Of a DNA stretch of 20,109 bases, positions 8,365-19,476 are shown one piece after another. Both the position numbers and the translations under genes were made by a program. The number at the start of each line of letters is the position of its first letter. Within the stretch, counting starts at the first letter, position 1. The notes beneath the pieces are model-generated. The model saw only the letters and a list, made by a program, of their open reading frames with translations. It ran no database searches and was not told the origin of the DNA. The DNA comes from a virus. Location of the stretch: positions 1 through 20,109 of IMG/VR virus record IMGVR_UViG_3300036668_000211, one strand, 5' to 3'.

Positions 8365-8782
8365 AGAATTTTACCCTGTTTCTACCTCCATAACGGACGA
8401 TAAAAGGCAGCAATTATTTGACTACGTGAAAAACCACGTTTTAATTAAAATGTTTGGATTTCAAGCGGCTACGCAGATAATAGAGGGTGCTATCGTAGGC
8501 GGTGCAAGTTCTACATTTATAGGATTTCAAAAATTTACAGCTTTATTATGCGCATACCAAGAGATAAAAGACCCTTTAGTAAGCACTAACTTCGGAGCTA
8601 AAATAATCGACAGAACGGGCGCAATAAACCCGACTAACGGACAGAAAAGCATCACTCTTATAGATATTGAAAATACAATTTCAATACATTATAAAACAGC
8701 TTTAGTATTAATTAACGAAAATAATTGTCAAGACGTGCCTAATTGGGGCGGATACTTTTCTTATAAAATTTCTCGATTATGA
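8327..8782 (+). CDS. Head-tail connector (gp6-like adaptor) candidate
   Basis: This 151-residue protein starts inside the 3' end of the portal gene and overlaps the fibre gene by ATGA. Its N-terminus (IPTIQELKEFYPVSTSITDD) followed by helices and a middle Gly/Ala-rich turn resembles small, mostly helical head-completion or connector proteins. These bind under the portal to receive the tail. The short length and position directly after the portal are the main reasons for the call. No catalytic motif is visible. Confidence 0.55.
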   Translation: MIPLTIPTIQELKEFYPVSTSITDDKRQQLFDYVKNHVLIKMFGFQAATQIIEGAIVGGASSTFIGFQKFTALLCAYQEIKDPLVSTNFGAKIIDRTGAINPTNGQKSITLIDIENTISIHYKTALVLINENNCQDVPNWGGYFSYKISRL

Positions 8783-10182
8783 TTGATCCATACGAATTTA
8801 ACGACGCAAATGCGCAAGGAGACAAAGAAGCTGTAATACTTCCAAACTTACCAAGTTTGGTAAATAAATTAAGTGCTGATGAAACCAATGGTATAAAAGA
8901 CAAGATTAACGAAATTGCGCAAGTAGTTAATGTAATTGATCCCGATAATGCAAACTTACAAACTGTTACTAATAGCGGAAATATTACGGATAAAGAAATG
9001 ATAATTGTATCTGACGGATTAGTTCCTGACGACGTATTTAATCAGGCTGTATTTTCTAATAAAAGTTTTAAAGCAATAAATACCGATACAAACAATAGCA
9101 TTACTGTTTTATCTGATAAAATTCAAAGTGTAAAAACAGACGGGGGTTTTGAAAGTACGATTAACGTAAGTAATGCAGAACCAACGGAAACAGCAACGTA
9201 TGAACAAGTTAAGCCTAATAAGTCGGGTACTTATGCAATGACTGACGATGTAGGTGTAGCAACCCTGCAACAAGCCACAGCAGGAGCAAATAAGAATTTA
9301 GTTGATGGTATATTTCAAGCGGGAGAAGGAGCAGGAAACGGACAGACAGGTGTAAATGTTAATCAGTTTGGAGGCGAGGCAGGAGCAGGCAACATAGGAG
9401 ATAATCAAAATGCTTTAGGTGTAGGTGCAGGTGTTAACAACACAGGAGATAATCAAAATGCTTTAGGTGTAGGTGCAGGTATTGGCAACACAGGAGACTT
9501 TCAAAATGCTTTTGGACAGGGTGCAGGTATTGGCAACACAGGAAACCATCAAAATGCTTTTGGTGTGGATGCAGGACAAAATAATACAAAACAAGGTCAA
9601 AATGCATTCGGACAACAGGCAGGAAAAAACAACACAGGAGACTTTCAAAATGCTTTTGGACAGGGTGCAGGCTTTGGTAATATTTATGACGATGTAAACC
9701 TTTTCGGTCAAGAAACACAAGCAGACGAAAATGGTCAAACCGTTTTTAGAAGTTCAGGAGGTTTTATGACTAGATTATCTACCTTACTTTTAACCGCAAG
9801 TAGAAAGTATATTTTTCCAGATAAAAGTGGAACGTTTGCAATGTTGGATGACATAATTTTACCAATACCATACCAAAGCATCGTTAACCTTGGAGACGTA
9901 ACGGGAGCGGTTAGTATTAATTGGAATTTAGGAGTAAAACACAAACTAAATTTAACTGGAAATATTACAATAACACAATTAAATTTTGCAGATTACGAGG
10001 GGCAAAAAGTACAGGAATTAGAGATTACAAGTTCCGACCCTGCACACACAATTACTTGGGTTTCTGTAAATCCAGCGGATTTTACGGACGCAATAGATTT
10101 TAATGAACCCTTTAGGTTCAATAACGTATCCATAAGATTGTTAAGGGGTTCTATTTTTCAATCAAATAATCTAGTAAGATAA
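8779..10182 (+). CDS. Tail fibre protein with seven 16-residue Gly-rich repeats
   Basis: This is a 467-residue protein. Residues 1-160 are acidic and Asn/Thr-rich, ending in KSGTYAMTDDV, a motif common in Bacteroidota phage fibres. Residues 204-315 are seven tandem 16-residue units of the type NNTGDxQNAFGxGAGx, the last one degenerate. They suggest a trimeric beta-roll or beta-helix shaft like those in bacterial trimeric adhesins. A second KSGTFAMLDDI motif follows near residue 352, then a beta-rich C-terminal domain that ends the protein. A fibre that reaches the host surface is the natural reading. It starts in an ATGA overlap with the connector gene and its stop overlaps the next start (TAATG). 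Confidence 0.82.
   Translation: MIDPYEFNDANAQGDKEAVILPNLPSLVNKLSADETNGIKDKINEIAQVVNVIDPDNANLQTVTNSGNITDKEMIIVSDGLVPDDVFNQAVFSNKSFKAINTDTNNSITVLSDKIQSVKTDGGFESTINVSNAEPTETATYEQVKPNKSGTYAMTDDVGVATLQQATAGANKNLVDGIFQAGEGAGNGQTGVNVNQFGGEAGAGNIGDNQNALGVGAGVNNTGDNQNALGVGAGIGNTGDFQNAFGQGAGIGNTGNHQNAFGVDAGQNNTKQGQNAFGQQAGKNNTGDFQNAFGQGAGFGNIYDDVNLFGQETQADENGQTVFRSSGGFMTRLSTLLLTASRKYIFPDKSGTFAMLDDIILPIPYQSIVNLGDVTGAVSINWNLGVKHKLNLTGNITITQLNFADYEGQKVQELEITSSDPAHTITWVSVNPADFTDAIDFNEPFRFNNVSIRLLRGSIFQSNNLVR
8842..8860 (+). repeat. Perfect 8-bp inverted repeat near the start of the fibre gene
   Basis: CCAAACTT (8842-8849) and AAGTTTGG (8853-8860) form a perfect stem over a three-base loop, 63 bases into the fibre gene. 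No T tract follows, so it is not terminator-like. It may be RNA structure affecting translation, or chance. Confidence 0.4.
9388..9723 (+). repeat. Seven tandem 48-bp repeats in the fibre gene
   Basis: In-frame 48-bp units begin at 9388, 9436, 9484, 9532, 9580, 9628 and 9676. Units 1-2 and units 3 and 6 are nearly identical pairs, while units 5 and 7 have diverged. The mosaic similarity suggests duplication and recombination between units. Repeat number may vary between isolates, changing fibre length. Confidence 0.92.
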
Positions 10183-10976: not shown

Positions 10977-11455
10977 TGAAAGCAATTAAAATTAATAACG
11001 AGTGGCAAATATTCCAAACTTTACCTAAAAGTTGGAATAATAAGATGCCTTATAACGCAATAGAAGAAGGTTTTAAAGATGTTGTAAATCCAAGTGTAAC
11101 CAACTTACAAAAATTAGGTGCAATGGTTTTTGACGTTGAAAATGAAGTTTTAACCTATCAAGTAATTGATAAAACAGAAGAAGAAATTTATACGGAAACT
11201 TTGGCAAATGCTTCAACTGTTACTGCAATTCAATTTTTAACGCAATTAGAATTAGAGGGAATAACTCAGGACGCTATTTTGCAAGTAATTGAAACTTTAG
11301 AAGCACCCAATAATATAATGGCTAGAGTTAGTTTTTTAAGAGCAACAACATTTGATAGAGATAGTCCACTTATTTCGTTGGTTGGTGCGGCTTTTGAAAA
11401 AACAGAATTAGAATTGGATGAAATATTTATAAATGCAAATAATCTAAATTTTTAA
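10976..11455 (+). CDS. Fibre-associated protein, unknown
   Basis: This 159-residue acidic protein has an N-terminus (MKAIKINNEWQIFQTLPKSW) typical of small proteins encoded after fibre genes in Bacteroidota phages. A helix-rich C-terminal half follows. It may be a fibre chaperone or accessory adhesin. Start and stop overlap both neighbours by one base (TAATG), so it is translated with the adhesin and the holin-like gene. No domain is recognised with certainty. Confidence 0.65.
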   Translation: MKAIKINNEWQIFQTLPKSWNNKMPYNAIEEGFKDVVNPSVTNLQKLGAMVFDVENEVLTYQVIDKTEEEIYTETLANASTVTAIQFLTQLELEGITQDAILQVIETLEAPNNIMARVSFLRATTFDRDSPLISLVGAAFEKTELELDEIFINANNLNF

Positions 11456-11724
11456 TGATAAATTTTTTAAAAGAAAACTGGGAGGTTATAGCGGCATTAG
11501 GTGGCAGCGTTATTGCTTATTTTGGTGGGAAAAAAGCGAAAGAAATAAGCAACAAAAAAGACGATGCGGATGCTGTCCGTTCAATTCAAGAATTATATGG
11601 CAAATTTGCAGAACAAACAAATGACAAGTTTGAAGAGATGCGAAAAGAAATGACCGAGCTAAAAATCATACTAAAAGAGTACATTGATCAATGCAGTAAA
11701 TGCGAAAATAATAAGATAAAATGA
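11455..11724 (+). CDS. Holin-like small membrane protein
   Basis: This 89-residue protein has one N-terminal hydrophobic segment (about residues 9-24, VIAALGGSVIAYFGG). A Lys-rich patch follows, then a charged coiled coil to the end with a late CSKC. Its position immediately before the endolysin with an ATGA overlap makes a lysis role likely, as a holin or holin regulator. Only one membrane segment is seen, and its Gly-rich character fits class III-like or pinholin-like proteins only loosely. A structural membrane-associated tail protein is the alternative. Confidence 0.55.
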   Translation: MINFLKENWEVIAALGGSVIAYFGGKKAKEISNKKDDADAVRSIQELYGKFAEQTNDKFEEMRKEMTELKIILKEYIDQCSKCENNKIK

Positions 11725-12101
11725 GACTAACAAAAAATTTTAATAGACAGGAATTTGACTGTAAAGATGGCACTATTGTGCCTAAAGAATTTATTAATAA
11801 TTTAATTGAATTAGCGGTAAATTTACAAGTATTACGAGATTACATTAAAGAAGTAGTAAGTGTTACGGGCAGCGGTTATAGAACAGAAAGCCATAACAAT
11901 AAAATAAAACCAAAAGGAGCTAAAAACAGCCAGCATTTGACAGCTAAAGCGGCTGATATAAATGCAGTAAATTACACGCCTAAAAGCCTAGCTGCAGTAA
12001 TTGAAAAACTTATTGCGGATGGTAAAATGAAACAAGGCGGAATAGGAATTTATAAAGGATTTGTACATTACGATATTAGAGGCACTAGAGCTAGGTGGTA
12101 A
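11721..12101 (+). CDS. M15-family peptidase, probable endolysin
   Basis: This 126-residue protein carries the zinc site of M15 D-Ala-D-Ala-type carboxypeptidases/endopeptidases. SGYRTESHNN at 51-60 is followed by SQHLTAKAADI at 70-80, with His72 and Asp79 as ligands in the H-x6-D motif. FVHYDIRG at 114-121 supplies the third ligand, His116. The protein ends in TRARW, as in the M15_3 group. It would cut the peptide stems of peptidoglycan at lysis. No signal peptide is present, so it needs a holin for export, consistent with the preceding gene. It is the last gene of the late operon, directly before a strong terminator. Confidence 0.92.
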   Translation: MRLTKNFNRQEFDCKDGTIVPKEFINNLIELAVNLQVLRDYIKEVVSVTGSGYRTESHNNKIKPKGAKNSQHLTAKAADINAVNYTPKSLAAVIEKLIADGKMKQGGIGIYKGFVHYDIRGTRARW

Positions 12102-12110
12102 AATTAAATA

Positions 12111-12140
12111 AACCCGTTACAAATCGTAACGGGTTTTTTT
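12111..12140 (+). terminator. Bidirectional intrinsic terminator
   Basis: A perfect 10-bp stem (12111-12120 with 12126-12135) with a five-base loop is followed by seven T (12134-12140). Read from the other strand the same stem is followed by a T-rich tract. It separates the converging late operon and the leftward small-gene operon. Confidence 0.92.
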
Positions 12141-12161
12141 ATTAGTAGCGTGTATTTATTA

Positions 12162-12171
12162 GTTATGGGTT
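12162..12171 (-). repeat. Left copy of the inverted GTTATGGGTT motif
   Basis: GTTATGGGTT is the exact inverse of AACCCATAAC at 12777-12786. Read on the minus strand, the complementary CCCATAAC directly follows the stop codon of the 12170-12760 gene. This is the position and form of the first core site (RYYYAAC-like) of an integron attC. No matching second half is found before the terminator. Confidence 0.6.
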
Positions 12172-12760
12172 ATTTTAAAAGACGTTCACGTTTAAAAAAC
12201 TCCAAAACAACTTTACATCTTGAAAAACCACATCTATCGCTCCAATAACTAAACTGAACGCCATCTAAAATATGACCTTCAATATATTTTAAATCCTCAT
12301 CATTAGGTTCAAAATCTTTAAACCCTCTTTTAACAAACAATTTAATTAGTCTTTGTGCTTTGCTCGGAAGAATAGTCTTTTCATCATCTTCATAGATATT
12401 ACACATTAGAGAACTTACTTTTTCAGAAAATGCAAAATATTTCTTATCAACTTTGCTAATTGAATTATTTTTAGAAATAAATTTTTTACCTCTAAAATCC
12501 ATTTGTTTTAAAACGATTTTTAAAGGTGTGCCTTTTACAGAATAATCATTGTACCAAACAAACCACTCTCTTTTTGTATTACTACAATTAAATGATTTAT
12601 GGTCTAAAGAAACTGTACCATTTACTGATTCTGCAAATTTTTTATTTAGAAATTTCATTAAATCTGCTTTATATTTAAAGCGATACAAATGCTTTTCTAA
12701 TTTTGAATTTTTAGATGGTCTAAACCACCATTCGTACTTTCTATGATTTCTAATTTTCAT
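12170..12760 (-). CDS. Orphan protein in a cassette-like setting
   Basis: This protein has 196 residues from the ATG at 12760. An in-frame TTG lies six codons earlier, but the ATG fits the start context of the window. It is basic, Lys/Phe/Trp-rich and soluble, with a WW pair near the N-terminus, paired aromatics at mid-length and a Cys pair near the C-terminus (RCGFSRC). No family, transposase or nuclease motif is recognised. The gene is bracketed closely by GTTATGGGTT in opposite orientations, 16 bases before the start and at the stop codon. It is convergent with the late operon and looks like an acquired accessory gene. Confidence 0.75.
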   Translation of the reverse strand: MKIRNHRKYEWWFRPSKNSKLEKHLYRFKYKADLMKFLNKKFAESVNGTVSLDHKSFNCSNTKREWFVWYNDYSVKGTPLKIVLKQMDFRGKKFISKNNSISKVDKKYFAFSEKVSSLMCNIYEDDEKTILPSKAQRLIKLFVKRGFKDFEPNDEDLKYIEGHILDGVQFSYWSDRCGFSRCKVVLEFFKRERLLK

Positions 12761-12776
12761 AATATGTGATAAAAAC

Positions 12777-12913
12777 AACCCATAACACTCGTTTTGAGCT
12801 ATTACGGCAATTGTGGTTAATTGATATTTGTTTTGCCCGTAGGCGTTTATTATTTGTTGAAAATTCTCGGTTCGCTATTTCCGTAACAGACACAAAGCGA
12901 GGGGACGTTATAA
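12777..12913 (-). repeat. attC-like imperfect hairpin element between two orphan genes
   Basis: Four nested helices close over about 134 bases: 12780-12786 with 12907-12913 (CCATAAC/GTTATAA, allowing two wobble pairs), 12788-12791 with 12898-12901 (CTCG/CGAG), 12793-12796 with 12893-12896 (TTTG/CAAA) and 12802-12807 with 12881-12886 (TTACGG/CCGTAA). The outer helix has the 7-bp core form of integron attC sites, with an asymmetric 1-against-5 bulge inside it. The stop codon of the 102-aa gene lies within one core. No gene is seen inside. It resembles an attC recombination site, but no integrase is in the window. Confidence 0.5.
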
Positions 12914-13216
12914 GCAATTGCTAAGAACCTGCTTCCAATTGACTTTTTCACCACAATAAGGGCAGTAAACAAATCTTGATAGGTATCCACGCCTATTATC
13001 AACTATTTCTTTTTTTGTTAATGGCTTTCCTTTAAGCATACCATATTTTTGATATTTTGGCATCATATTGAAAATGCTTGTAACTTCATAATCAATAGTT
13101 GATTTGTTTACTTTTTCTCCGCTAATAAATCCTACTAAACAATCGCAACTACTTATAACAGCACCTATATTCAATTGCGGTTTCTCTGGTTCATTCAAGT
13201 TTTCGTTTTCTAACAT
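12908..13216 (-). CDS. Small zinc-ribbon-like orphan protein
   Basis: This is a 102-residue protein. Its N-terminal part is acidic (NENLNEPEKP), followed by SSCDCLVGFISGE, and its C-terminus carries YCPYCGEKVNW (CPYCG knuckle) and a last cysteine. With the CDC pair this could make one zinc site. Proteins of this size with a terminal 'F.YCPYCGEKI.W' are typical of accessory cassette-type genes in Bacteroidota, but function is unknown. It starts in the CATAATTATG context. Its stop codon sits inside the attC-like element. Confidence 0.75.
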   Translation of the reverse strand: MLENENLNEPEKPQLNIGAVISSCDCLVGFISGEKVNKSTIDYEVTSIFNMMPKYQKYGMLKGKPLTKKEIVDNRRGYLSRFVYCPYCGEKVNWKQVLSNCL

Positions 13217-13310
13217 AATTATGTGTTTATTTAAAGTTTAGTAATTCTAAATCCGCAACTAAATATAGCTGCAAACCGTTATGTAATATACTGCTTCACA
13301 TATTCAGAAA
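13217..13310 (-). other. Intergenic leader with a CATAACGG motif
   Basis: This 94-base gap upstream of the 102-aa gene holds no reading frame. On the minus strand it begins after the stop of the 13311 gene and contains CATAACGGTTTGCAGC, with a GTTGCGGATTT segment downstream. The CATAAC core again resembles an attC or similar flavobacterial intergenic element, but I could not draw a convincing long hairpin. It probably marks the upstream edge of the inserted genes. Confidence 0.35.
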
Positions 13311-13754
13311 TTATGAGTAGCGAATGTACAAAAATGTTGCCAGTAAAACTATTATAAAGTAGAAAAAATAAGGCTCTTTAGTTTCCTTTGTTTTAATCGT
13401 TTTAAGGGCTTCAATTTGTTTTGTTAATACTTTTGCATTGTTAATATATCTTTGCTCCAACGTCTTCAAATCTTGTTTATAATTAGTGTTTTCCTGCTTA
13501 TTTATAATTCTAACGTTTTCATACTTTTTACCATTTACAAAATAAGGTTTTGAATTATCAAAGGGTTCAAATCCGTAAATATTTACAAAACGTGAAACTT
13601 CAATCTTATTTGTGATTTCAATTTTAGAAGTATCTTTAAAAACTTCTTTAACAGTTTCAGTTTCTTTAGTTTTATCGATTTCTTTTATCTTTTTAGAAGC
13701 CCCACAACTGCAAGAGATAGCGGCTAAAAGCAGAATTGCTATTTTTTTTTTCAT
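13311..13754 (-). CDS. Candidate unimolecular spanin (lipoprotein with C-terminal membrane anchor)
   Basis: This is a 147-residue protein. The N-terminus MKKKIAILLLAAISCSCG is a lipoprotein signal peptide with the acylated cysteine at 15 or 17. The middle (about 20-125) is charged and becomes a coiled coil around 90-120. The C-terminus (about 128-146, FFYFIIVLLATFLYIRY) is one membrane segment. A lipid anchor in the outer membrane plus an inner-membrane anchor is the defining layout of u-spanins such as T1 gp11 (about 130 residues). These fuse the two membranes in the last step of lysis. No acidic surface-export tag follows the cysteine, which keeps it facing the periplasm. It overlaps the upstream gene by ATGA, and the lysis genes lie about 1.2 kb away on the other strand. 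A superinfection-exclusion lipoprotein is the alternative. Confidence 0.6.
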   Translation of the reverse strand: MKKKIAILLLAAISCSCGASKKIKEIDKTKETETVKEVFKDTSKIEITNKIEVSRFVNIYGFEPFDNSKPYFVNGKKYENVRIINKQENTNYKQDLKTLEQRYINNAKVLTKQIEALKTIKTKETKEPYFFYFIIVLLATFLYIRYS

Positions 13755-14215
13755 AATTGATAAAATTGTTTAATTAATCCCTCGTGTTTTTCCATAAATT
13801 CTTTAGCGATTTCGGGAGTGTTAAATGTTAGGAGGTTAAAATTATAGTAAACAATTGAAGTTTTTAAATCGTTCATACTTCGAATAACGCAGTACTTTGA
13901 TTCACTATTTCTCCAGTCAATCTCACAATCTCCGCAATCTGCCATTAATTGCGTTAATTGAGCGTAAGCTAATACGGATGCGGCTTGTTTTTCTGTTTTG
14001 AAAATGTTTTTGTTTATGAAATTTGTGATTATCGAAAATGAAGTTTTTGAAATACAAGAGACTTCTTCAATATAGTAACCATCTATTTTACCTAATTGCT
14101 CCCAACTATCCGCAACCTTTAAGGGTTTTAATTCAGGATAATCTAAATAAATTTCATTAGCCATTTCTGGCATTTTTTTAAGCATTATTACAGCTTGTTC
14201 TTTTGTGATTTTCAT
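13751..14215 (-). CDS. Bacteroidota-phage-type hypothetical protein
   Basis: This 154-residue protein contains FKTEKQAASVLAYAQLTQLM around residues 92-111, followed by an Asp/Cys patch (ADCGDCEIDW). The C-terminus is TPEIAKEFMEKHEGLIKQF. This combination recurs in a family of small proteins in Bacteroidota phages and mobile elements with no known function. It is acidic, mixed alpha/beta, without signal or membrane segment. It is part of the leftward operon, one base after the HTH gene and overlapping the candidate spanin gene by four bases. Confidence 0.75.
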   Translation of the reverse strand: MKITKEQAVIMLKKMPEMANEIYLDYPELKPLKVADSWEQLGKIDGYYIEEVSCISKTSFSIITNFINKNIFKTEKQAASVLAYAQLTQLMADCGDCEIDWRNSESKYCVIRSMNDLKTSIVYYNFNLLTFNTPEIAKEFMEKHEGLIKQFYQL

Positions 14216-14216
14216 A

Positions 14217-14429
14217 TTATATTAATTTAATTGTTATTTTATAACCATTTTTAAAAGTTTTAAAACTCTTAATGTTTAACTCCTTCGCAATTGCTATACT
14301 ATTTTCAATTGATCCAATAGTTTCTTTATTCATTTGTGCGGATAAGGTAGATTGTTTGATTTTCATAATCTCACATACTTCTTTTTGATTTTTACCCGAT
14401 AACTCAATTATTTGCCTGACTGTATTCAT
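14217..14429 (-). CDS. Small helix-turn-helix (Cro/XRE-like) regulator
   Basis: This is a 70-residue protein with a helix-turn-helix around residues 14-34: NQKEVCEIMKIKQSTLSAQM. The pattern, with a buried A/V in helix 1, a turn and SxLSxxM in the recognition helix, is that of Cro/C1-type domains. The remaining 35 residues are too short for a CI-like effector domain, so this is Cro-sized. It overlaps the 116-aa gene by ATGA. Placed in the leftward operon next to a divergent promoter region with a dyad, it is a natural candidate to bind there. Confidence 0.72.
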   Translation of the reverse strand: MNTVRQIIELSGKNQKEVCEIMKIKQSTLSAQMNKETIGSIENSIAIAKELNIKSFKTFKNGYKITIKLI

Positions 14430-14776
14430 AATTCTTTTTTTGTTAGTGCAAAATATAAGTTTTGAAGCTCGTGGACGTATTGAATTTTTACATCCAATTT
14501 AAACCATTCCTTTAAAAATATTGACACGTTGTTAGATTTTGATATTGAAATAAAATCTTTATCAAACCAACTATCATTTTCACTTCGTTTAAACCCAAAC
14601 TTCAAAAGCCAATCTTTAGTTATTTCTATTGGTTCAATTTCTTCACTTGTTGTATAATCATATGTTATTTCGTCAACTGAAATATACTCCTCATTTATTG
14701 CTGTAACCACATTAAATGGCTTTTCTCCGTAAATAAGCTTTACAAAATTGCCTAATCTTAATTTTTTTGCCTCCAT
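14426..14776 (-). CDS. Accessory Bacteroidota protein of unknown function
   Basis: This is a 116-residue protein. It begins MEAKKLRLGNFVKL, has PIEITKDWLLKFGFK around residues 49-63 and ends with KIQYVHELQNLYFALTKKEL. All three segments are hallmarks of a small family spread through Bacteroidota phages and accessory islands, often in host-takeover or regulatory gene clusters. Function is unknown. It is the first gene of the leftward operon, behind the promoter whose -7 element lies at 14794-14801. Confidence 0.8.
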   Translation of the reverse strand: MEAKKLRLGNFVKLIYGEKPFNVVTAINEEYISVDEITYDYTTSEEIEPIEITKDWLLKFGFKRSENDSWFDKDFISISKSNNVSIFLKEWFKLDVKIQYVHELQNLYFALTKKEL

Positions 14777-14793
14777 AATTATTTTTATTTCTA

Positions 14794-14801
14794 CAAATGT
14801 A
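14794..14801 (-). promoter_or_regulatory. -7 element of the leftward promoter
   Basis: On the minus strand this reads TACATTTG, an exact TAnnTTTG. The -33 position (about 14821-14824) reads TTTT, three of four matching TTTG. It would start the 14776-to-13311 operon with an A/T-rich leader of roughly 15 bases. Confidence 0.6.
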
Positions 14802-14823
14802 AAACAAAAATATTAATAAAAAA

Positions 14824-14838
14824 AACATTTAAAATGTT
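14824..14838. promoter_or_regulatory. Dyad operator candidate between divergent promoters
   Basis: AACATT-TAA-AATGTT is a perfect 6+6 dyad. It spans the expected -33 positions of both the leftward (14821-14824) and rightward (14837-14840) promoters, so one bound regulator could control both. Low-complexity A/T sequence makes chance possible. Confidence 0.45.
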
Positions 14839-14859
14839 ATTTATTTAAAATTAAAGTTG

Positions 14860-14867
14860 TATATTTG
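14860..14867 (+). promoter_or_regulatory. -7 element of the rightward promoter
   Basis: TATATTTG matches TAnnTTTG. The -33 position reads TTAT, a poor match, which suggests a weak or activated promoter. The 16 bases at 14870-14885 are identical to the leader at 19765-19780. It would drive the 14898 gene and the small genes behind it. Confidence 0.6.
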
Positions 14868-14897
14868 TAAAAGAAATAACAACTAGAAAAACACATT

Positions 14898-18320: not shown

Positions 18321-18397
18321 AGTCGGAAGTTAACAAATTAAAGAAATTATTAAGACTCTTTAGATGTGCCGACTCACATTTATTGGGTCTTTTTTTT
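18321..18397 (+). promoter_or_regulatory. Structured leader (attenuator-like) of the methyltransferase gene
   Basis: Basal stem: 18352-18358 (AAGACTC) with 18385-18391 (GGGTCTT). Upper stem: ATGTG (18364-18368) with CACAT (18375-18379). The apical loop is CCGACT (18369-18374), exactly complementary to AGTCGG at 18321-18326. Eight T (18390-18397) follow the basal stem, so the element can read as a terminator. Pairing of the loop with the upstream six bases could give a pseudoknot or alternative fold that decides read-through. Confidence 0.5.
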
Positions 18398-18408
18398 ATA
18401 GAATAAAT

Positions 18409-19476
18409 ATGCACAAATTTAACTACAACTGGAATTTAAAAGATACAATTTTCACTAAAGACAAAGGCAAAGTATTTAGTTGCTTTGCGTGCGGTGGTGG
18501 TTCAACAATGGGTTATAAACTCGCTGGTTTTGACGTTATTGGTCACAATGATATTGACAAAAAAATGATTGAAGTTTATAAAGAAAATCACAATCCTGAA
18601 TTTAGTTTTTTGGAATCAATTACAACTTTTGCCAAACGTAAAGATTTACCAAAAGAACTTTATAATCTTGATATTTTGGACGGTTCTCCACCTTGTAGCT
18701 CTTTTAGTATGGCAGGAAATAGAGAAAAAGATTGGGGCAAAAAAAAGGTATTTCGTGAAGGTCAAGCTGAACAGATTTTAGATACATTATTTTTTGATTT
18801 TATTGATTTAGCAAAAGAGTTGCAACCTAAAGTTGTAGTTACTGAAAATGTAAAAGGTTTACTTATGGGGGAAGCTAAAGCCTATGTTCGTAAAATTTAT
18901 GAAGAATTTGATAAAGCTGGTTATTATTGTCAACACTTTTTATTAGATGCTTCAAAAATGGGAGTTCCTCAAAGAAGGGAAAGAGTGTTCTTTATTTGTT
19001 TACGAAAAGATTTAGCAAAACCATTTTTGCATTTTGCGGATATGTTTACCGAAATTCCTAAAATTGAAATGGTTTTTAAAGATAGGCTTATTTTATTTGG
19101 GGAAATATTTGAAAAAAATGGAAAAGGAGAGCAATCTATACCACCTTCATATTCTAAATACTATGATTTACGATTAATTAAAGAATATTGCATGAGCCAA
19201 ACTACTATGAGAATTGAAAATAAAGAAAAGTTTTTTTCAGTAAAGTACATTTCAAAATATAAAGTTTTGAATACAATAACCGGGGGAGAAAAAAACATGT
19301 TGCACGATGAAAAAAGAACTTTATCAAAAAGTGAAATTATAAAAGGTGGTAGTTTTCCAAAAGATTACAATTTTTTAAACAATAAACCAGGTTATTTAAT
19401 TGGAATGTCAGTACCTCCAATAATGACAGCGCAAATTGCATCAAAAATTTATGAACAATGGTTGTCTAAAATATGA
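18409..19476 (+). CDS. C5-cytosine DNA methyltransferase
   Basis: I chose the ATG at 18409 (355 residues). The upstream in-frame ATG at 18364 lies inside the leader hairpin and would add 15 residues unlike the family. Motif I is CFACGGGSTMGYKLAGF (residues 25-41, AdoMet site). Motif IV is SPPCSSFS with the catalytic Cys96. Motif VI is TENV with Glu146, and motif VIII is GVPQRRERV (185-193). Motifs IX-X are at the end, including PPIMTAQIASKIYEQWL. The stretch between motifs VIII and IX (about 200-310) is the likely target recognition domain. No cognate restriction gene is seen, so it is probably an orphan phage methyltransferase protecting DNA from host restriction. The next gene overlaps by ATGA. 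Confidence 0.93.
   Translation: MHKFNYNWNLKDTIFTKDKGKVFSCFACGGGSTMGYKLAGFDVIGHNDIDKKMIEVYKENHNPEFSFLESITTFAKRKDLPKELYNLDILDGSPPCSSFSMAGNREKDWGKKKVFREGQAEQILDTLFFDFIDLAKELQPKVVVTENVKGLLMGEAKAYVRKIYEEFDKAGYYCQHFLLDASKMGVPQRRERVFFICLRKDLAKPFLHFADMFTEIPKIEMVFKDRLILFGEIFEKNGKGEQSIPPSYSKYYDLRLIKEYCMSQTTMRIENKEKFFSVKYISKYKVLNTITGGEKNMLHDEKRTLSKSEIIKGGSFPKDYNFLNNKPGYLIGMSVPPIMTAQIASKIYEQWLSKI

Follow-up and report, generated by a model that had tools for sequence, protein, structure and literature searches.

Classical integrons (IntI, attI, attC) carry imperfect-palindrome sites with R boxes, L boxes, an unpaired spacer and a variable loop, and their arrays lie beside a tyrosine recombinase, with insertion at the integrase end and complementary cassette body ends. 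Integrons have been said not to function without the IntI-specific domain (Messier and Roy 2001, as cited in PMC9668308). Integrase-free attC clusters (CALINs) are known in the virulent phages Tetrasphaera TJE1, Polaribacter P12002L and Pseudoalteromonas PH101, with DNA methyltransferase cargo and inverted core motifs at their boundaries (Qi et al. 2023, PMC9892861). As far as its main text goes, that paper does not mention Flavobacterium, and for the virulent phages it describes neither a complete array accompanied by an integrase nor flipped cassettes, coding attC or cassette polymorphism between sister isolates. Bacteroidota are named as an integron-bearing phylum in reviews, without detail, so that parts of the chromosomal system considered below may be described outside the open-access literature; in the open-access papers searched, the recombinase type, the flipped cassettes and the coding attC sites reported here appear to be undescribed.

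Here we analysed a stretch of 20,109 bases that makes up a whole IMG/VR virus record (the window). Its segment 13281-12162 is very probably a two-cassette CALIN of a Bacteroidota integron system, lying at a variable phage locus between an endolysin gene and a lipoprotein-like gene (Table 1). The source is a small Bacteroidota (Flavobacterium-like) phage with two swappable cassettes of integron build whose genes are turned round. The sites and arrays of this system share with classical integrons all the features of site anatomy, array position, insertion end and body ends listed above, and the cluster shares with the phage CALINs of Qi et al. its lack of an integrase, its inverted boundary motifs and, in related phages, the methyltransferase cargo. 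Unlike in classical integrons, the R boxes fit GTTANNNNNNG rather than the GTTRRRY / RYYYAAC core boxes, the recombinase found in relatives has no IntI-specific domain, and the phage genes are reversed, each having attC on its 5′ side, with ~40% of start codons falling inside attC.

Table 1. Coordinates of the cassette units, their parts and their flanks in the window.
Feature	Position	Strand	Remarks
Left flank: M15-peptidase endolysin, phage late operon	11721..12101	+	PF08291 E 1.8e-14, PHROG 894 E 1.1e-27
Terminator hairpin	12105-12141		follows the endolysin gene
Insertion point, weakly attI-like, TAAC|TAATAAATACACGC	12148..12165	-	attI weight matrix
Gene-1 body, 3′ end: AACCCATAAC	12162..12171	-	AAAAT before it; holds the last TAAC box (12165-12162) and the phage DNA junction
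Cassette unit 1 (attC 2 + gene 1)	12162..12906	-	boundaries after AAC, as in Freya series; R1 sites
Cassette gene 1, 196 aa	12170..12760	-	function unassigned by family searches
Gene-1 body, 5′ end: GTTATGGGTT	12777..12786	-	then G TTTT; fits end template GTTA-6 nt-G-4 nt
attC site 2	12781..12912	-	TAAC box 12910-12907, GTTA box 12786-12783; R1 69.7 bits, E 3.9e-14
Cassette unit 2 (attC 1 + gene 2)	12907..13277	-	boundaries after AAC, as in Freya series
Cassette gene 2, 102 aa	12908..13216	-	leader MLENENLNEPEKPQLNIGAV from attC 1; stop codon inside next TAAC box
attC site 1	13154..13283	-	TAAC box 13281-13278, GTTA box 13159-13156; R1 118.1 bits, E 2e-25; inverted arms
Right flank: phage gene, small, lipoprotein-like	13311..13754	-	PHROG 5885; 95% identical in L003/L004

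attC sites and cassette body ends

The sequence-only reading had singled out GTTATGGGTT at 12162-12171 and its exact reverse complement AACCCATAAC at 12777-12786, the former overlapping the stop codon (12172-12170) of the minus-strand reading frame 12760-12170 and the latter lying 16 bases upstream of its ATG; both were confirmed, and the pair was found to extend to 14/15 bases (GTTATGGGTTATTTT / AAAACAACCCATAAC). A 10-bp pair alone proves nothing, because AT-rich DNA such as this commonly contains them: the window has 40 exact 10-bp inverted pairs at spacings of 300-900 bp, compared with 41-66 in ten dinucleotide shuffles, and copies of GTTATGGGTT with 1-2 mismatches occurred in the window at chance level only. 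These counts, together with the variability of the locus between relatives, would fit a chance inverted decamer at an ordinary phage gene, with the locus turned over by illegitimate or homologous recombination. However, two independent attC matches abut the genes exactly, the body ends obey a 15-nt template and the breakpoints of replacement fall at TAAC/GTTA boxes on both sides, which makes this explanation highly improbable.

Eight further viral contigs carry copies of the sequence that precedes gene 2, for the most part in other contexts. Each copy is ~130 bp long, opening with TAAC (or AAC) and closing with GTTA; in between lie inverted arms, a start codon and ~20 leader codons, and at the GTTA the leader is fused in frame to a protein body. 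Most of these bodies are mutually unrelated. A scanner for this pattern (TAAC, 2-8 nt, paired arms, 0-5 nt, GTTA) gave 17 sites in one of these contigs, L055, versus 0.8 in shuffles, several of the 17 being one site counted on both strands. Spacers of 5 nt on the TAAC side and 1 nt on the GTTA side were present in 51 of 94 sites, and the R boxes included GTTATGG, GTTATAA and GTTAGCG. A covariance model, R1, was built from 57 aligned attC-like sites of other phages, with the window excluded. Among these 57 sites, 95.8% of cells were paired, 17 of the 22 pairs varied on both sides and the covariation score was 0.70 versus 0.08-0.13 for slid controls, so that paired R and L boxes, spacer and variable loop are conserved as structure over sequence; because the scanner rewards pairing, the pairing level is partly selected, whereas the R1 test of the window is independent of that. 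One G.T pair was invariant on the coding strand (57/57), and the coding strand folded better than its complement in 56 of the 57, the strand preference of attC 2 in the window being slight.

Covariance models had been proposed as a check of the earlier reading, and R1 found two attC-like sites in the window, attC 1 and attC 2, and no others (next best 12 bits, E about 1). Applied to 380 kb of further sequence, R1 matched none of 43 other phage loci, nearly all picked for a related endolysin, and found four sites in a Chryseobacterium plasmid. Supportively, attC 1 shared 93.7% identity with a site in the contig L076, which has both array and integrase. Rfam returned no attC family for the window and L055, only tRNAs in L055. 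Folding of the intact 156-nt site against shuffles gave no signal, since the loop dominates, and attC 2 alone folded no better than shuffles; covariation and R1 decided instead.

The bodies between neighbouring sites follow one template, starting with GTTA-n6-G-n4 and ending with n4-T-n6-TAAC, in which n6 and most of n4 are complementary within the body. At least four extra complementary bases at the body ends were found in 60 of 77 phage-array bodies (mean 3.6, maximum 12 in 2,000 permutations), which bears out the expectation of similar motif pairs around other genes, and 53 of 56 bodies in Flavobacterium chromosomal arrays had five or six complementary end bases. Both window genes fit the template (TGGGTT G TTTT / AAAA T AACCCA for gene 1; TAAGtA G TTGC / GCAA T TgCTTA for gene 2), and the GTTA box of attC 2 is the start of the right-hand motif. 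The motif pair thus represents the two complementary ends of one cassette body, that of gene 1, and an instance of a general signature of such cassettes. Such complementarity would arise because a circular cassette sets both ends against the attC hairpin, which they would flank, lengthening its stem. Inverted ends around a gene could also be terminal inverted repeats of a transposable or homing element (IS-like, HNH or retro-element), and HNH elements are frequent in phages; however, neither gene is transposase-, nuclease- or RT-like in family searches, the segment has no transposase gene with fixed terminal repeats, and the end sequence differs from cassette to cassette, being only self-complementary, with attC rather than the ends common to the units. 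Such an element is hardly credible here.

The proposal of an integron cassette in a phage was therefore supported, R1 and the body ends identifying two integron-type cassettes, but not its GTTRRRY boxes. Its geometry, a site before and a site after the gene, had to be replaced: attC, ~130 bp long, is on the 5′ side of the gene, and the motif pair represents body ends meeting in the circle. The mobile segment is also longer than 12162-12786, running from 12162 to 13281 with two cassettes. Gene 1, taken for a gene alone on its strand, closes a run of minus-strand genes (14776-12170), in which gene 2 (13216-12908) is its immediate upstream neighbour. Nor is it a strict orphan: a 146-kb phage contig has a 79% identical copy, and the Tenacibaculum phages PTm1/PTm5 have a relative at 24%. 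No Pfam, PHROG or NCBIfam family matched it, and its AlphaFold prediction, with a pLDDT of 41, was set aside. The 79% copy, which has no attC near it, suggests phage-to-phage capture. Within attC 1 lie the start codon of gene 2 (13216) and ~20 of its codons; the leader of gene 2 is also fused to unrelated proteins in other phages, and its C-terminus, CPYCGEKV, is zinc-ribbon-like.

The window locus in related contigs

The flanks of the segment are 93% (11219-12165) and 86% (13282-14885) identical in the viral contigs L003 and L004. Between the breakpoints, the window holds 1,116 bp with genes 1 and 2 versus 257 bp with one different small gene in L003. Both breakpoints lie inside plus-strand GTTA boxes (12162 and 13278), and homology with L003/L004 resumes at 12165. 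The L003 gene has a related leader, MNEPNNPQSCKNAVSG, ending at GTTAGCGG, and its 3′ end reads ..CACTAAC|TAATAA. By this comparison, the locus in L003/L004 holds another cassette, with a different gene, a related leader and the same GTTA/TAAC ends. It is not an empty site, because the 5′ half of attC is lost in L003; at L003 5639-5700 a terminator hairpin stands in its place before the leader, possibly marking a frozen cassette.

No empty version was found among the relatives with this locus, which are only L003 and L004, both filled; a true empty site is predicted to read ..TATTACATAAC|TAATAAATACACGC... The insertion point was the best of 227 TAAC sites in the window by an attI weight matrix, but as its score was -3.8 versus 10-16.5 for real attI, the attI-likeness of the junction at 12162 is suggestive only. 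Searches of the 20-kb window and of the contigs L003 and L004 found no integrase, and because the window has none, we infer mobility at this locus and acquisition in trans, by a recombinase that would have acted from outside the window phage. Elsewhere in the window, 8779-10182 encodes a tail-fibre-like protein with GNTGDNQNAFGxGAG repeats, and a reading frame at 18364-19476, outside the cassettes, resembles a DNA cytosine methyltransferase (SPPCSSFS motif).

Arrays beside a recombinase and exact unit differences in Freya phages

At L055, about eleven attC sites in a row are followed by the gene of a 267-aa tyrosine recombinase, and the scanner detected arrays immediately upstream of nearly all phage relatives of this recombinase. 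An attI-like AAC|TATnnTATATATGTAA is conserved ~52 bp before the recombinase start. The last body ends at this AAC and the opposite array end begins with attC, so the units consist of attC plus gene; read from the integrase, the layout is int-attI-(gene reversed-attC)n, which the Freya phages described below confirm. Multi-cassette arrays adjoining a tyrosine recombinase and an attI-type site were found in L055-L092, compared with two cassettes and no integrase in the window. In L078, L082, L084-L087 and L092, which are decayed phage integrons, the recombinase is interrupted or matched only over its first 19-84 codons and attC arrays are still present; in L078 the array continues downstream of the decayed recombinase.

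At 253-276 aa as extracted, the phage recombinases retain the residues R-K-H-R-H-Y and lack the IntI-specific additional domain around patch III: IntI1 residues 197-227 and 239-248 are missing, and 28 residues stand where IntI4 has 76. The score was 145 bits against TIGR02249 (cut-off 265) and 178 bits against the best named family, NF040815 (cut-off 220), and fell short of the cut-offs set for the XerA, XerC/D and integron-integrase families. XerA, XerC and XerD are alike in family and size, but the phage recombinase lies beside cassette arrays rather than single dif sites. In the tree, whose deep branches are weak and which lost one of four Xer controls in extraction, IntI1 lay outside the main phage clade. 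Because of these scores and this position, we do not claim IntI-family membership, only that the system works like an integron. A canonical IntI/GTTRRRY cassette from a proteobacterial-style integron would explain the overall hairpin anatomy, the attI-array-integrase topology and the conserved G after TAAC on the coding strand of these sites, as G follows AAC on most classical attC bottom strands (PMC2727003), and phage CALINs have been reported, including that of Polaribacter phage P12002L (PMC9892861). Its boxes, however, would be GTTRRRY, and its integrase would carry the insert, reach the TIGR02249 cut-off and group with IntI1, so that a canonical cassette is quite improbable.

Sister isolates of the Polaribacter Freya phages (Freya_1, 2, 5, 6, 8 and 10) differ by exact units. 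Freya_1 is empty (..TTTACAAC|ACCCC..), Freya_2 carries unit A (842 bp), Freya_5 A+B (B, 902), Freya_6 A+B+C (C, 472), Freya_8 A+D (D, 3198) and Freya_10 A+B+D. Each of these differences amounts to the exact insertion of a stretch that ends in AAC, and units are added only on the integrase side; between A and D, unit B is either there in full or missing in full. No more than 3-7 bases are common to the joints, apart from Freya_1 versus Freya_2, where both ends share TTGTTTACAAC and the step may have occurred by slippage. Units A and D hold more than one gene each. At the start of each of the units A, B and D, R1 found sites with E 2e-8 to 3e-4, some of them truncated where the record begins. 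Exact gain or loss of single units at the integrase-proximal end was thus observed in Freya and not for the window locus; the empty site that the sequence-only reading had looked to for support exists, with stepwise filled versions, in the Freya phages, while relatives of the window hold a different cassette.

Our initial reading was that each unit is a gene plus its downstream attC, as in classical integrons, with the leader exchanged at each recombination. The body ends alone are compatible with attC on either side, and one leader occurs on many different bodies. This reading was reversed by the Freya units, which begin with attC, end in ...AAC and join beside the integrase, and by the position of attI on the integrase side of the array; moreover, the coding strand has its conserved G after TAAC, in the place that G takes on the bottom strand of classical sites. 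The downstream arrangement is now considered unlikely. With attC plus gene as the unit, read on the minus strand in the window, the coding strand of attC would fold to a hairpin with the R box TAAC/GTTA, an asymmetric 5/1-nt spacer and L arms with the invariant G.T. A short tyrosine recombinase, from other phages or the host and presumably acting on folded single strands, would join the TAA|C side of the circular unit to a TAAC target, either the attI-like TAAC junction beside its own gene or an off-target TAAC. The 5′ attC would carry a ribosome site, the start codon and a short N-terminal leader, so that a captured gene could be expressible at any place; the leaders encoded by attC are presumably translated. 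A recombination site would then double as an N-terminal coding segment, and the system challenges the need for the IntI-specific domain in integron function. Capture by a phage is directly testable with the Freya isolates and their Polaribacter host. The study that isolated them took the integrase to mean that these phages might be temperate (PMC8776804); contrary to that reading, integrases of such phages are no proof of a temperate life style.

Gene orientation, cargo and bacterial hosts

In phage arrays, the reading frame ran with attC in all 71 scored bodies, the reverse of a gene reading away from attI with attC at its 3′ side, and the start codon lay inside attC in 22 of the 71, or in 23 of 57 by a second method. 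Reciprocally, 12 of 15 genes at bacterial loci near the recombinase and 44 of 51 in Flavobacterium chromosomal arrays ran opposite to attC, the classical orientation. The chromosomal arrays have the same attC type and body-end signature as the phage arrays, with related recombinases in many Bacteroidota genomes, and differ in gene orientation and in mostly longer recombinases. A bacterial-genome scan gave 404 recombinase relatives, the best 80 of the 404 being almost all from Bacteroidota, and most of those examined were longer (347-463 aa), with extra N-terminal sequence.

When 84,980 bacterial genomes were scanned for exact matches to one attC allele, none was found; the phage-only element once read from this null was dropped when R1 found the same attC class in Flavobacterium chromosomes. 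Of 41 Flavobacterium genomes sampled, 33 had R1-type sites, with as many as 69 in one genome, which makes a cassette reservoir in the hosts plausible. The cargo of phage cassettes includes N6/N4 DNA methyltransferases, and the Flavobacterium phage filifjonk9-1 has four methyltransferase genes between attC sites. We consider it likely that Bacteroidota and their phages share an integron system without the IntI domain, in which the phage branch flipped the cassettes and made attC the coding start and leader, and through which several kinds of phage trade genes, DNA methyltransferases among them, fast enough to show among isolates of one sampling campaign. It would be a precise exchange system for small gene units in phages and would explain part of the small-gene turnover of flavobacterial phages.

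In an Acinetobacter baumannii plasmid (L191, NZ_CP104336.1 7612-8277), a recombinase ~50% identical to the phage integron recombinase, over 82% of the query, lies directly beside tet(X3), with no attC of this model near it; it could bear on how tet(X) left Bacteroidota. The isolated Flavobacterium phages filifjonk9-1 (MN812206, L050), hattifnatt9-1 (MN812207, L051) and 6H (KC959568, L053) have 15, 9 and 5 attC sites, none of which is annotated in the regions viewed. The Chryseobacterium plasmid NZ_CP041688.1 (L052) carries seven sites of this attC type, and the genes at the sites viewed are in classical orientation.
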